Shown: positions 15,474 through 50,367 of the stretch, in pieces
How positions within the stretch are numbered: position 1 is the stretch's first letter
Layout of the letters: every line of letters starts with the position of its first letter
Assembly: GCA_017427945.1 (NCBI GenBank)
Contig: JAFRRT010000039.1
Coordinates: 1-64,000, forward strand
Reading direction: 5' to 3'
From: Muribaculaceae bacterium
Lineage (GTDB): Bacteria; Bacteroidota; Bacteroidia; Bacteroidales; Muribaculaceae
Length of the DNA stretch: 64,000 nt
Made by a program: the position numbers and the translations under genes
The notes under the pieces: generated by a model
Database searches by the model: none
Told to the model about the DNA's origin: nothing
What the model saw: only the letters and a program-made list of their open reading frames with translations

Positions 15474-17603
15474 ATGAAGAAAATTGCAATATTGCTGACG
15501 ATGGCCACCATGGCGATGTTAGCTGCCGCTCAGATGGCCAACCCCGTCACCTTCACCTCACAACTCAAAACCAATGGCACCAGCGAGGGCGAAATCGTTT
15601 TCACTGGTAAGATTGACAAAGGCTGGCACGTGTACTCGACCAACCTGAACGGTGCGGGCCCGACCGAGGCAGCCATCACCTTCCATAAGAAAGACGGTGT
15701 GGAACCCGTGGGCGCATTGAAACCCGTCGGCAAGGAGATTTCACAGTATGACGAGATGTTCGGTGCTAAGTTGCGCTACTTTGAGAACAATGTGCAATTT
15801 GTGCAAAAGGTAAAGTTCACCAAGCCTAACTACGACATCGACGCTGATCTGGAATACGGCGCCTGCAACGACCAGTCGTGCCTGCCGCCATCGAGCGTAA
15901 GTTTCAAGAAAGCCGGCAAGTCACCTGCCGTTGACGGCGAAAAGGATAATGATAAGGAAAAAGAAGAACAAGAGAAGAAAGAAGCTGAAGCACTTGCCAA
16001 GGCTAAGGCCGACTCACTCGCAGCCCTGGCAGCTGCCGCAGCCGACAGCGCCGCTATGGCACCCCCCGTTGACAGCGCAGCCCTCGCCGCCCTTGACCAT
16101 GACGCATTGTGGCGTCCTGTAGTAGGCGACATTCAGGCCATCGACGGCACCGACGGAGCCAGCGGTGGACGTTCACTGTGGTACATCTTCCTGTTGGGTC
16201 TGCTGGGCGGATTGGTGGCATTGTTCACCCCCTGCGTGTGGCCCATCATCCCCATGACGGTAAGCTTCTTCCTCAAGCGCGCCAAAGATGACAAGAAAAA
16301 GGGTATCAAGGACGCCATCACCTATGGCATCTCGATTGTCGTCATCTACCTGCTGTTAGGACTTATCGTGACCGCCATTTTCGGTCCCAGCGCGCTCAAC
16401 GCGCTCTCGACCAATGCGGTGTTCAATATCTTCCTGTGCCTGCTGCTGGTAGTCTTTGCCCTGTCGTTCTTCGGCATGTTCGAGATCAAGCTGCCTAGCA
16501 AATGGTCCAACGCCGTTGACAGCAAGGCCAGCAACACCAGCGGACTGCTGTCCATCTTCCTGATGGCCTTCACGCTGGCACTTGTATCCTTCTCGTGCAC
16601 CGGTCCCATCATCGGTTTCCTGCTGGTGGACTTTGCCACGAGCGGTAACTTCTGGGGACCCGCCATCGGCATGCTGGGCTTTGCATTGGCTCTGGCACTG
16701 CCGTTCACGCTGTTTGCCCTCTTCCCCTCATGGTTGAAGTCGGCGCCCAAGTCGGGTGGTTGGATGAACATCCTCAAAGTGGTGCTTGGTTTCATCGAAC
16801 TGGCGTTTGCCTGCAAGTTCTTCTCGGTGGCCGACCTCGCCTACGGCTGGCATCTGATGGACCGCGAGGTGTTCCTGTGCCTGTGGATTGCCATCTTCGG
16901 CCTGCTGGGCCTCTACCTCATCGGCAAACTCAAATTCAAGAGCGACATCGTCGAGCCTGGTGATGAGACCAAACCCATGCCTGTCATCTGCATCATGGGC
17001 GGATTGGTTTCCATCGCCTTCGCCATCTACATGCTGCCGGGCCTGTGGGGAGCACCGTGCAAGGCCGTAAGTGCCTTTGCACCGCCCATGAATACCCAGG
17101 ACTTCAACCTCAACACCAAGGAGGTGCGAGCTGCCTACACCGACTATGAGCAGGGCATGGCCGCCGCTGCCGCCTCGGGCAAACCCGTCTTCCTGGACTT
17201 CACAGGCTTCGGTTGCGTGAACTGCCGCAAGATGGAGGCTGCCGTATGGACCGACCCGAGCGTGGCCGACAAGCTCAACGAGGACTATGTGCTGATTTCG
17301 TTGTTTGTCGATGACAAGCGCCCGCTGCCCGAGCCCATCGAGGTGACCGAGGCAACAGGCGAGAAGCGCACGCTGCGCACCATCGGCGACAAGTGGAGCT
17401 ACCTGCAGCGCTACAAGTTCGGCAGCAATACGCAGCCGTTCTACGTGTGCGTGGACCCGCAGGGCAACGCCTTGAGTGGCTCGTTTAGCTACAAGGAGGA
17501 CGTACCCGCCTTCCTCGACTTCCTGGAAGGCGGCCTCGATACTTATAAAGAACATCTCAACTCGAAGATGAAGGAGATCGAAGAAGCCCTATACAAAAAG
17601 TAA
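15474..17603 (+). CDS. dsbD: Thiol:disulfide interchange protein DsbD
   Basis: The 709-residue inner-membrane protein moves electrons from cytoplasmic thioredoxin to periplasmic disulfide reductases. The three modules and six cysteines are visible: a signal peptide and N-terminal DsbD-alpha-like domain with C131/C136 (ACNDQSCLPP); eight or so membrane helices (about 235-525) with C254 in TPCVWPIIP and C375 in FSCTGP; and a C-terminal thioredoxin domain with C581/C584 (GCVNCRKME). An unusual Lys/Glu/Ala-rich linker (about 155-205) joins the first two. It is probably monocistronic; the next gene is on a separate inserted element. Confidence 0.93.
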   Translation: MKKIAILLTMATMAMLAAAQMANPVTFTSQLKTNGTSEGEIVFTGKIDKGWHVYSTNLNGAGPTEAAITFHKKDGVEPVGALKPVGKEISQYDEMFGAKLRYFENNVQFVQKVKFTKPNYDIDADLEYGACNDQSCLPPSSVSFKKAGKSPAVDGEKDNDKEKEEQEKKEAEALAKAKADSLAALAAAAADSAAMAPPVDSAALAALDHDALWRPVVGDIQAIDGTDGASGGRSLWYIFLLGLLGGLVALFTPCVWPIIPMTVSFFLKRAKDDKKKGIKDAITYGISIVVIYLLLGLIVTAIFGPSALNALSTNAVFNIFLCLLLVVFALSFFGMFEIKLPSKWSNAVDSKASNTSGLLSIFLMAFTLALVSFSCTGPIIGFLLVDFATSGNFWGPAIGMLGFALALALPFTLFALFPSWLKSAPKSGGWMNILKVVLGFIELAFACKFFSVADLAYGWHLMDREVFLCLWIAIFGLLGLYLIGKLKFKSDIVEPGDETKPMPVICIMGGLVSIAFAIYMLPGLWGAPCKAVSAFAPPMNTQDFNLNTKEVRAAYTDYEQGMAAAAASGKPVFLDFTGFGCVNCRKMEAAVWTDPSVADKLNEDYVLISLFVDDKRPLPEPIEVTEATGEKRTLRTIGDKWSYLQRYKFGSNTQPFYVCVDPQGNALSGSFSYKEDVPAFLDFLEGGLDTYKEHLNSKMKEIEEALYKK

Positions 17604-17633
17604 CTCAAACATTTTCCACAGAATACTATTAAC

Positions 17634-17663
17634 CGCCCTACGGGCGGGAAATTAAACAAAATT
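17634..17663 (+). repeat. Left end of GxxExxY element: hairpin plus 15-bp inverted repeat
   Basis: A GC hairpin CCGCCC-TAC-GGGCGG (17634-17648) is followed inward by GAAATTAAACAAAAT (17649-17663), the exact complement of the right end at 18173-18187. The ATG of the enclosed gene is only 10 nt further in. Confidence 0.85.
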
Positions 17664-17673
17664 TAATAATTTA

Positions 17674-18159
17674 ATGACCGCCAAAGAGCATAACGAGCGC
17701 TATAGATTCTTTCATGAAATCACTGGAGAAGCTATGCTTGTTCACAGTGAGTACCATGAAGGCCTACTAGAATCAGCCTATGAAGCCGCCTTGACCTATT
17801 TGCTAAGGCAAAAAGGATATTCTGTAGAGAAACAAGTTATGCTACCCATGTATTGGAAGGATGTGAAACTCGACCAAAGATACTGCATGGATTTGGTCAT
17901 CAACAATGATATAATTGTAGAGCTCAAAGCCATTAGCAATATCGGAAGCCCACACCGTAGACAATTATGGAATTACATGAATCTCACGCACAAGCCGTAT
18001 GGCATGCTTGTGAACTTTGGTGCTAAAAGTTTCTATAGTGAGTGGTATCATCGACACGAAGATGGAAACATTGAGAAAATCACATGGCGAGATTCCATTC
18101 AAGAGATGATTGATTCCAGGATTGAAAAAGTAATAAATTCCAGTCAAACCAGCATGTGA
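17674..18159 (+). CDS. GxxExxY protein, PD-(D/E)XK nuclease-like
   Basis: The 161-residue protein carries the family's namesake motif GLLESAY (G-x-x-E-x-x-Y, around residue 30) and a PD-(D/E)XK-type core MDLVINNDIIVELKA (Asp about 72, Glu-x-Lys about 82-84). The family is widespread in Bacteroidota and related phyla, usually in several copies per genome, with no established function; a DNA or RNA nuclease fold is predicted. The gene is visibly AT-richer than dsbD and the next gene. It is enclosed by a perfect 15-bp inverted repeat with GC hairpin caps, and gene-less relatives of this framework occur elsewhere in the window. This suggests a small selfish element (inference). No clear Shine-Dalgarno. 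Confidence 0.88.
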   Translation: MTAKEHNERYRFFHEITGEAMLVHSEYHEGLLESAYEAALTYLLRQKGYSVEKQVMLPMYWKDVKLDQRYCMDLVINNDIIVELKAISNIGSPHRRQLWNYMNLTHKPYGMLVNFGAKSFYSEWYHRHEDGNIEKITWRDSIQEMIDSRIEKVINSSQTSM

Positions 18160-18172
18160 TCATTTAAAACAT

Positions 18173-18202
18173 ATTTTGTTTAATTTCCCGTGCGAAGCAC
18201 GG
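18173..18202 (+). repeat. Right end of GxxExxY element: 15-bp inverted repeat plus hairpin
   Basis: ATTTTGTTTAATTTC (18173-18187) is the exact complement of 17649-17663 and is followed by a GC hairpin CCGTGC-GAA-GCACGG (18188-18202). The hairpin architecture matches the left end although stem bases differ, which implies conservation of structure rather than sequence. Confidence 0.85.
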
Positions 18203-18232
18203 TCATAATATGAACTTAATTGACCAAGGAAT

Positions 18233-19525
18233 ATGATTGAAGAGAAGGTTAGAGAACAGATTATTGCGTTAATTAAGCGTGAAGTAGTGCCCGCCGTAGG
18301 CTGTACCGAGCCGATGGCAGTAGCCTTGTGCGTGAGCCGCGCCACCGAGGCACTGGGCCATATTCCAGAGAAAATCACCGTTCTGCTCAGCGCCAACGTC
18401 CTGAAGAACGCCATGGGCGTAGGCATTCCCGGCACCGGTATGATAGGCCTGCCCATCGCCATCGCCTTGGGCGCCATCATCGGCAAATCGGAATACAAAC
18501 TTGAGGTGCTCAAGGACATCACCCCTGAAGCACTCGAGCAAGGCAAACAGTATATCAACGAAGGACGCATCGACATCCAACTGAAACAGGACTGCTGCGA
18601 CAAACTCTACGTCGAGGCCATCTGCGAGGGCGGTGGTCACAAGGCCGGTGCCATCATCCAGGGCTCACACACCTGCTTTGTTCAAGTTTCCAGCGATGAC
18701 ATGATCATGCTCATCGACCCTGTTCCCGACGGCTTTGTCGGCGATGACAGTAACGACATCGAGCTGAATCTGCGACTGGTCTATGACTTCGCCATGCAGG
18801 CGCCTGTCGATGAAATACGTTTCATCCTCGAGACCCGTGACTATAACCTCAAGGCAGCTGAAGAGTCCCTGAAGGGCAACTACGGCCACTGCCTGGGCAA
18901 GACGATGGACAGGCCGCTGAGTCACGGCATCTTTGGCAACACCATCTTCTCACGCATCCTCTCAAAGACCGCCCTGGCCTGTGACGCGCGCATGGGTGGT
19001 GCCCTCATCCCCGTGATGAGCAACAGCGGTTCGGGCAACCAGGGCATCTGCGCCACCAATCCTGTCGCCGTCTATGCGATGGAGAATGAAAACACTGAGG
19101 AGGAACTCATCCGCGCCCTCACGCTGAGCCACCTGACCGCCATCTACATCAAGCAGAGTCTGGGCAAACTGAGTGCCCTGTGCGGCTGCGTCGTGGCATC
19201 CATCGGCAGCAGTTGCGGTATCACCTACCTGATGGGCGGCGATTATGAGCGCATGTGCCACGCCGTAAAGAACATGGTTGCCAACCTGACGGGCATGATT
19301 TGTGACGGAGCCAAACCCAGCTGCGCACTGAAAATCACCTCTGGTGTCTCAACTGCCTTGCTAAGCGCCGTTCTCGCCATGGAGGGCCGTCACGTCACCA
19401 GCGCTGAGGGCATCGTCGACGACGACGTGGACCGCTGCATCCATAACCTGACTGTCATCGGTGCCGACGCCATGTGCGCCACCGACAACATGGTCCTCAA
19501 CATCATGACCGGCAAGTCCTCGTGA
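18233..19525 (+). CDS. Serine dehydratase alpha family protein / L-cysteine desulfidase (CyuA-like, UPF0597)
   Basis: The 430-residue protein belongs to the UPF0597/CyuA (YhaM) group, iron-sulfur enzymes that degrade L-cysteine to pyruvate, ammonia and sulfide, or L-serine to pyruvate and ammonia. Signatures are VGCTEPMAVAL with C24, NAMGVGIPGTGM, the SNSGSGNQGI loop, and conserved cysteines in LCGCVVASIGSSCG. These cysteines are candidates for the [4Fe-4S] ligands. Cytoplasmic. Preceded by a fair Shine-Dalgarno (AAGGA). It ends at a strong bidirectional terminator facing the susD gene. Confidence 0.88.
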   Translation: MIEEKVREQIIALIKREVVPAVGCTEPMAVALCVSRATEALGHIPEKITVLLSANVLKNAMGVGIPGTGMIGLPIAIALGAIIGKSEYKLEVLKDITPEALEQGKQYINEGRIDIQLKQDCCDKLYVEAICEGGGHKAGAIIQGSHTCFVQVSSDDMIMLIDPVPDGFVGDDSNDIELNLRLVYDFAMQAPVDEIRFILETRDYNLKAAEESLKGNYGHCLGKTMDRPLSHGIFGNTIFSRILSKTALACDARMGGALIPVMSNSGSGNQGICATNPVAVYAMENENTEEELIRALTLSHLTAIYIKQSLGKLSALCGCVVASIGSSCGITYLMGGDYERMCHAVKNMVANLTGMICDGAKPSCALKITSGVSTALLSAVLAMEGRHVTSAEGIVDDDVDRCIHNLTVIGADAMCATDNMVLNIMTGKSS

Positions 19526-48600: not shown

Positions 48601-48646
48601 ATAACAATCACATTGTAATGTTGTGTCATTGCTACGCTGCATTTAA

Positions 48647-48728
48647 CCGTGCTAACGCACGGGAAATTATTCAAATTATTATAAAATTTTAATATCTAAA
48701 TTTGTTTAATTTCCCGCCCTACGGGCGG
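48647..48728 (+). repeat. Gene-less hairpin-capped element, solo copy 1 (82 bp)
   Basis: The left hairpin CCGTGC-TAAC-GCACGG is followed by GAAATTATTCAAATT, an AT-rich centre, then AAATTTGTTTAATTTC and the right hairpin CCGCCC-TAC-GGGCGG. The AT arms pair with each other apart from TT mismatches. It shares arms and hairpin style with the GxxExxY element and sits between rluB-type and asnS genes. The outer bases are A before and T after, as in the other copies. Confidence 0.82.
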
Positions 48729-48780
48729 TCGATGTTCAGAAGCATTAAGAGACACGTTATGAATATTTAAGAATAGAACA

Positions 48781-50235: not shown

Positions 50236-50240
50236 ATAGA

Positions 50241-50322
50241 CCGCCCTGCGGGCGGGAAATTATTCAAATTATTTTTAAATTTTATACTAATATTGTTTAA
50301 TTTCCGCGAGCCTAGCGAGCGG
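50241..50322 (+). repeat. Gene-less hairpin-capped element, solo copy 2 (82 bp)
   Basis: The left hairpin CCGCCC-TGC-GGGCGG and arm GAAATTATTCAAATT lead into an AT-rich centre, then TTGTTTAATTT and a right hairpin CCGCGAGC-CTA-GCGAGCGG containing a tandem G-A mismatch. It has the same length and orientation as the copy at 48647-48728. It lies just past the asnS terminator in the 50173-50501 gap. Confidence 0.82.
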
Positions 50323-50367
50323 TTATTAGAGAAGGCATCCGTGCTTTATTATTATTATGACTAATTG

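Follow-up and report, generated by a model that had tools for sequence, protein, structure and literature searches.

The window, that is, the whole stretch of 64,000 nt of Muribaculaceae DNA that was analysed, carries a compact cassette between dsbD (15474–17603, forward strand; Pfam DsbD_TM and DsbD_N) and a cyuA-like gene of the serine dehydratase alpha family (18233–19525, forward strand; Pfam SDH_alpha). In this cassette, one GxxExxY gene (17674–18159, forward strand; 161 aa, assigned to a PD-(D/E)XK nuclease by TIGR04256 at 115 bits, PF13366, and alignments) is enclosed by two inverted 31-nt ends, each composed of a GC hairpin and an AT-rich arm. The left end has the hairpin CCGCCC(TAC)GGGCGG at 17633–17647, followed by its arm at 17648–17662; the right end runs from its arm at 18173–18187 into the hairpin CCGTGC(GAA)GCACGG at 18188–18202. 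Taken as a single inverted pair (17632–17662 and 18173–18203, 31 nt), the ends are 84% complementary, and most mismatches oppose GCCC/GGGC in one stem to GTGC/GCAC in the other. An earlier note on this DNA had described a perfect 15-bp inverted repeat, capped outside each arm by a 6-bp GC hairpin with a 3-nt loop whose stems differ while the structure is retained; all of these elements are present, with the left arm lying one base off the position given there (17649–17663). Similarly, the start codon (ATG at 17674) does lie just inside the left arm, at a distance of 11 nt and not 10 as first stated, the gene is indeed AT-richer (40.5% G+C vs 56.6% for dsbD, 57.2% for cyuA, and 53.1% for the window), and no transposase-like ORF was found between dsbD and cyuA.

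When folded as DNA, the 51-nt ends give z-scores of −3.6 to −4.7 against shuffles on both strands. A covariance model of the 35-nt end, termed R1, was built from gene-bearing cassettes and matches there by construction; it scores 55.1 bits at the left end (17631–17665, forward strand) and 51.6 bits at the inverted right end (18170–18204, reverse strand), both being training sequences. Because the same structure stands at related genes in other genomes, and in view of these R1 scores, the cassette structure is beyond chance. No T-run lies outside the hairpins of the window's cassette, and Rfam returned one weak unrelated match only, within the dsbD gene.

The cassette protein is a member of the GxxExxY family (TIGR04256, 115.2 bits against a cut-off of 35), and PF13366 (PDDEXK_3) is the only Pfam domain assigned to it. 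Residues E33, D73, E83-x-K85, and Q97-x3-Y101 are invariant in the alignments, with D73 and E83-x-K85 unchanged in alignments of 33 and of 29 sequences. The predicted structure (pLDDT 94) has PD-(D/E)XK proteins as its best-ranked folds, lies near SSO0001 and Hjc, and resembles Cas4 and Holliday-junction resolvases; judging from alignment and model, the active site of the predicted PD-(D/E)XK nuclease is intact. Values of dN/dS between 0.02 and 0.13 in 12 of 16 pairs (undefined in four) indicate strong purifying selection on the gene. PADLOC returned no family for the nuclease, PHROGs gave three weak matches, a comparison with phage records gave no match, and a sequence search against solved structures gave three insignificant matches only.

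Some GxxExxY match occurs in 88 of the 101 genomes of the genus (own included), and a distinct subfamily of 45 copies in 37 genomes can be set apart (E ≤ 3.1e-48; next match 4.0e-28). One gene of this subfamily is found in the own genome, together with two distant GxxExxY genes of 37–38% identity with other flanks. The gene tree, which leaves out L032 and L034 (the places of L052 and L053) as well as L035 and L036 (the places of L004 and L005), resolves into clades labelled here A (12 copies, the window's included; support 91/97), B (4), Y (5; 88/99), C (4), and D (8), the rest being unresolved; on this tree, the two nuclease clades at dsbD-cyuA may derive from a single insertion or from two. 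Ten copies of clades A and B adjoin cyuA, a gene read by eye as yidC stands next to four of the five clade Y copies, and polA, rimO, and pfk are among the other neighbours named by eye. Given several different neighbour genes and ten copies beside cyuA, the subfamily has spread among sites yet also stays long at sites. The isolates Prevotella sp. tc2-28, Hoylesella pleuritidis JCM 14110, and Prevotella nigrescens carry subfamily genes as well, and in each of the three more hairpin-and-arm units were seen by eye near the gene. On IMG/VR contigs listed as viral (L352–L358), which may be phage or host DNA, GxxExxY genes of the subfamily also occur, and by eye their flanks show hairpins and arms.

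In clades A, B, and Y, each of the 21 copies is flanked left and right by a GC hairpin whose arm lies towards the gene. In the 42 ends of these cassettes (38 distinct), 98.2% of the stem cells are paired, and 47 two-sided stem changes stand against no one-sided change, counted as sequences and not as events, with five 7-bp stems aligned out of register; when the partners were slid by 1 to 3 columns as a control, at most 50.5% of the cells were paired. The selection on hairpin structure that the earlier note had read from two stems is thus supported by covariation. By rule, eight left and five right flanks of the 45 copies had no hairpin; on the outward strand, the loop of the nearest hairpin reads G..A on the left in 28 of 37 cases and on the right in 27 of 40, with T..C in none of the 37 and 3 of the 40. 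Read outwards, the pattern is GN(N)A at both ends. Since the two ends would stand in opposite sense within one transcript, the loop sense speaks for recognition at DNA ends. Two or three successive hairpins stand on each side in clade D, with 88.5% pairing in the inner stem and 64% in the outer stem. The right ends of clade C (L021, L025, L039, and L041) are CCGAGCGAAGCGAGG-like, their hairpin pairing only with two adjacent G-A mismatches and bearing the word GCGAAGC at its centre. GCGAAGC is a very stable DNA mini-hairpin.

The dispersed copies that the earlier note proposed to look for exist, and most of them are short palindromes in which a few dozen AT-rich bases occupy the place of the gene. 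R1 finds 44 ends in the own genome (150 scored among 1639 candidates), including gene-less copies as inward-facing pairs; the arm as a unique sequence was discarded as an idea, an exact 15-base search giving only the two known copies and the structure-aware model 44. All 15 pairs of ends less than 700 bp apart face inward, with lengths of 72–304 bp and of 574 bp for the gene cassette, which is counted among them; 14 ends are without a partner within 700 bp, one of which has a degenerate partner (window 50287–50324), and 17 of 19 loci lie outside long open frames. In the window, one gene-less inward pair (48645–48730; R1 50.2 and 39.4 bits) separates a pseudouridine synthase gene, taken by eye as rluB, from a gene taken by eye as asnS, and another (50239–50324; 49.6 and 19.2 bits), the second end of which is degenerate, comes after asnS. 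Folding gave z −9.6 for one 184-nt unit and z −3.2 for window positions 48610–48765. R1 ends occur in 68 of the 101 genomes of the genus, with 69 candidates scored in each, so that counts for the richest genomes are lower bounds; close relatives hold from 2 to at least 69 ends, and G013 and G069 hold 58 and 73, respectively.

A pattern admitting GTGC and GCCC stems only found 27 gene-less pairs in the fetched loci, and 27 of 27 combine one GTGC with one GCCC stem. An outer inverted repeat with a consensus near GAGGGTGTGTCATAATT lies beyond the hairpins in 12 of these 27 and in none of the nine own-genome pairs among them, as judged by comparing 60-nt outer flanks with the best of 100 shuffles that preserve base composition only. 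The gene-less pairs that lie in such a larger palindrome are at L128, L130, L139, L141, L149, L151, L184, L190, and other loci. It is very probable that the cassette represents the gene-bearing copy of a family of REPIN/MITE-like repeats.

Orthologous sites were read at two places. For dsbD-cyuA, 30 loci (own included) of the 74 genomes with cyuA comprise 8 with a gene cassette, 1 with ends and no gene, and 21 with no R1 end. The earlier note had suggested looking for empty sites between these neighbours, and near-empty ones occur in two close relatives, with stop and start 18 bp apart in G026 and 17 bp apart in G084; in G078, two ends overlap and the gene is lacking. The other 19 loci contain mostly other inverted repeats (by eye), and L080 has a single hairpin followed by TTTATAT. 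For rluB-asnS, 30 loci (own included) were read of the 90 genomes with asnS, and the window pair at 48645–48730 is absent from the site in all 29 relatives; the sole R1 match in those 29 loci, in G052, lies at a different place, taken as past the asnS end. This G052 end (L203), apparently just past asnS, may be the same insertion as window 50239–50324. Palindrome turnover at these sites is high, and no insertion junction or target duplication could be placed at either site, the flanks of the relatives being too different. In the relatives (L055–L082 and L193–L221), both regions also hold several other gene-less inverted repeat families (ACAATAAATACAATGA-, AACTTAAAACTTACAACT-, and CACGCTAAGACGC-like), by which dsbD-cyuA and rluB-asnS look like hot spots of palindrome turnover. 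As for the minimal mobile element envisaged in the earlier note, a cassette with defined ends stands, but movement was unobserved, target duplication was not found, and the number of ends does not follow the gene significantly (p = 0.11).

If nuclease and repeat are linked, dispersed ends of a distinct kind are to be expected for a different nuclease clade. A second model, R2, was built from 15 ends of eight gene-bearing clade D loci, where it matches by construction. Its matches are spread over 20 of the 101 genomes, and every one of the 8 genomes that carry clade D genes is among them. Each of these eight has 8–38 R2 matches (training ends counted), some always on other contigs, and 0–5 R1 ends; the 20 close-clade genomes that carry genes of clades A, B, Y, or C have no R2 match. 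A subfamily gene is present in 13 of the 20 R2 genomes vs 4 of the 41 remaining genomes outside the close clade. R3, modelled on seven gene-bearing clade C ends, matches in 22 of 101 genomes: in the four clade C genomes nearly all R3 ends stand in tandem at the gene, with two further pairs elsewhere in G071, and dispersed ends occur in G066 (19) and G073 (16), both without a clade C gene. Clade D fits the prediction of own ends, and clade C fits it in part only. The co-partition of ends and clades also follows species kinship, and shared descent would yield the same partition; in G082, which has a clade B gene, the pair L141 has clade A-type ends.

The close clade was set by hand at an asnS identity of at least 89% (35 genomes) plus five genomes without an asnS match and with cyuA of at least 83%, leaving out G006 and G010 (cyuA 83%, asnS 73–74%). 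Within it, 20 of 40 genomes have no subfamily gene, and R1 ends are found in all 20, six of them at 58–73; the median is 49 ends with the gene vs 25 without it (n = 20 and 20, p = 0.11, not significant, some counts being lower bounds). Most genomes are drafts, in which gene absence is uncertain, but the six end-rich gene-less genomes are 80–95% complete, and draft gaps are unlikely to account for all six. In light of the R1 ends in gene-less genomes and the G082 mismatch, the repeats can persist without the nuclease gene, and a different mobiliser may be at work. Accordingly, the tie between repeats and GxxExxY genes implied by the earlier note holds in one direction, with ends at 21 of 21 A, B, and Y copies, and fails in the other, with dozens of ends per genome away from such genes.

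Inverted repeats around small genes extend beyond the subfamily. Comparison of the upstream 120 nt with the reverse-complemented downstream 120 nt, scored above the best of 100 shuffles that preserve base composition only, detects flanking inverted repeats at 72 of 87 subfamily loci and 11 of 18 distant GxxExxY loci, and at 1 of 35 window ORFs as a control (asnS, with an R1 pair on either side). Loci with short flanks or with upstream sequences already represented were removed to leave these 87 and 18, and L334 (53% identity) is counted as subfamily. GxxExxY genes are thus mostly inside inverted repeats, and a strict rule for GC hairpins on both flanks is passed by 42 of the 87 subfamily loci. 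Arms of a different kind were seen by eye in distant members, among them CATGAATT-like and ACGAATT-like units, and a copy on a Bacteroides finegoldii plasmid has ACCACAGAGGACGCAGAGG-like arms (by eye). Similarly, genes of the four-helix-bundle family (PF05635, IVP-like) have flanking inverted repeats at 14 of 20 loci, hand-picked of 30 and tested with 140-nt flanks against shuffles that likewise preserve base composition only. Their repeats (L084–L107) belong to other families, often simple repeated words like AACTAAAAACTAAGG, and these genes were dismissed as owners of R1 ends, of which the 30 PF05635 loci hold none. In G073 (L088), the gene read by eye as yidC comes after a four-helix-bundle locus, and a yidC-like gene (by eye) also comes after GxxExxY cassettes in other genomes (L022, L026, L038, and L040), so that the yidC-like site is one place with two kinds of small gene. 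A wider class is indicated in Bacteroidales, in which small intergenic genes (GxxExxY and four-helix-bundle) lie within palindromes.

The following explanation is proposed, to which as a whole a probability of roughly 0.45 is assigned: the cassette would be the coding member of a REPIN/MITE-like family whose nuclease cuts its own ends, with repair spreading them. The two inverted ends, each a GC hairpin with an AT arm, would be able to pair into a stem with two side hairpins; the GxxExxY nuclease may recognise, and cut at, the hairpins or branched structures formed by ends of its own type, and repair of the break may copy ends from place to place. Gene-less copies would be served in trans and could represent derivatives that outlive the loss of the gene. 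Several findings weaken the link between nuclease and ends, namely the 20 of 40 close-clade genomes that lack the gene and yet have R1 ends, the non-significant difference in end number (p = 0.11), the mismatch of G082 at L141, the clade C pattern, the outer inverted repeat in 12 of 27 gene-less pairs, and a co-partition that tracks species kinship as well.

In another account, considered rather doubtful, the palindromes are MITEs or REP-like units that owe their movement to another enzyme, be it a Y1/RAYT protein or a transposase acting on the outer repeat, and carry the nuclease gene as cargo in the inner loop. Ends are abundant in genomes without the subfamily gene, a transposase could own the outer repeat near GAGGGTGTGTCATAATT seen in 12 of the 27 gene-less pairs, and Y1_Tnp genes occur in 92 of 101 genomes (no match in G013 and G089). 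But the outer repeat is seen in 0 of 9 own-genome pairs among the 27 and was unseen by eye at gene cassettes, the seven Y1_Tnp loci tested have no R1 end, and G013, a draft of 91% completeness, has its 58 ends with no Y1_Tnp match. Moreover, in other groups GxxExxY genes are enclosed by inverted repeats of other kinds, an outcome not expected of chance cargo. The RAYT-like Y1_Tnp gene of the own genome (L118, C21:16200–17900) has its own GC hairpins with GTTA loops and no R1-type AT arms.

It is improbable that the paired ends work in the transcript, as a panhandle that is processed or protects the mRNA, with the nuclease perhaps cutting its own RNA for self-control. A panhandle anatomy is shared with rRNA intervening sequences (PMC4990558), and four-helix-bundle genes are enclosed likewise (14 of 20); against this, the loop sense is symmetric between DNA ends, so that within one transcript the right loop would read G..A and the left one T..C, R1 stems show no one-sided (G-U-type) change, gene-less copies are dispersed, and Rfam gave no match of note. 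A further idea is that of a host nuclease that trims palindromes or resolves cruciforms, its gene being trapped in a repeat and limiting palindromes rather than spreading them. Strong purifying selection, the long stay of ten A and B copies beside cyuA, and the resolvase-like predicted fold agree with such a role, but gene carriers among close relatives tend to have more ends and not fewer (medians 49 vs 25, not significant) and each clade has its own ends, which leaves it distinctly improbable. Lastly, the hairpins could serve to terminate transcription of dsbD and of the nuclease gene, the arm match being chance, a reading for which the single hairpin and TTTATAT of L080 at the same site speak; it is very improbable indeed, considering the matching arms inside both hairpins, the absence of a T-run outside the hairpins in the window, and the same ends at other loci, with inward pairs recurring over the genome that already contradict it.

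Returning to the cutting of ends by the GxxExxY nuclease, a broader claim is put forward tentatively: a widespread PD-(D/E)XK family may drive hairpin-palindrome populations by cutting branched DNA, with each clade keeping its own repeat, and this would be a second, unrelated route to REPIN-like populations. PMC8049555 described REPINs in 2021 as the one intragenomic sequence population of prokaryotes known to be stably maintained; if the claim is true, the present repeats would be a second candidate with another enzyme. With many of them located in inverted repeats, and some as coding copies of dispersed hairpin families, the common, unexplained GxxExxY genes gain a concrete substrate for tests. 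An association of GxxExxY genes with repeats was not found described in titles or opening lines of abstracts in the literature searched, which leaves preprints and most subscription journals outside its scope, and novelty is thus weakly supported.

Among known systems, 23S rRNA intervening sequences with an S23/IVP gene are similar in combining a small gene with inverted repeats that form a panhandle and in being suspected selfish elements, their terminal repeats forming a stem that is cut by RNase III (PMC4990558); unlike them, the cassette lies between dsbD and cyuA and encodes a PF13366 protein, its ends are dispersed over many intergenic sites, and relatives of IVP (four-helix-bundle) are here likewise within inverted repeats (14 of 20). 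Cas4/RecB-like and Holliday-resolvase nucleases of the PD-(D/E)XK type are also among the closest known systems. Like the present family, MITEs comprise short elements without coding capacity that terminate in inverted repeats and have coding relatives bearing the same termini, whereas the coding copy here has a nuclease and no transposase, each end is a covarying hairpin, and a target duplication was not found, the flanks of relatives being too different to place a junction. Similar in layout is REPIN-RAYT, with dispersed extragenic hairpins in inward pairs, a gene-less majority, and clade-specific repeats (PMC3116915, PMC8266576, and PMC8049555), as well as a lone nuclease gene flanked by the same hairpins (21 of 21 A, B, and Y copies here, where the nuclease is a presumed driver).

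According to PMC3116915 and PMC8266576, hallmarks of REP/RAYT are a Y1/HUH transposase and a GTAG-like tetranucleotide 5′ of the palindrome. The cassette gene has no Y1/HUH domain, Pfam giving PF13366 only, and none of the 42 aligned ends has GTAG before the stem on the strand shown, the other strand having AATTTC- or GATTTC-like bases; a RAYT as owner of the R1 ends was rejected on the seven Y1_Tnp loci. The cassette thus differs from REPIN-RAYT by having a PD-(D/E)XK nuclease where that system has a Y1/HUH enzyme, by the missing GTAG tag, by AT arms that pair between ends, by a presumed driver gene within one copy, and by R1 repeats that are abundant where the gene is missing. The analogy to RAYT/REP systems drawn in the earlier note therefore stands in part, for dispersed inward pairs and defined ends and not for membership: the cassette is REPIN-RAYT-like in anatomy and is not a RAYT/REP member.
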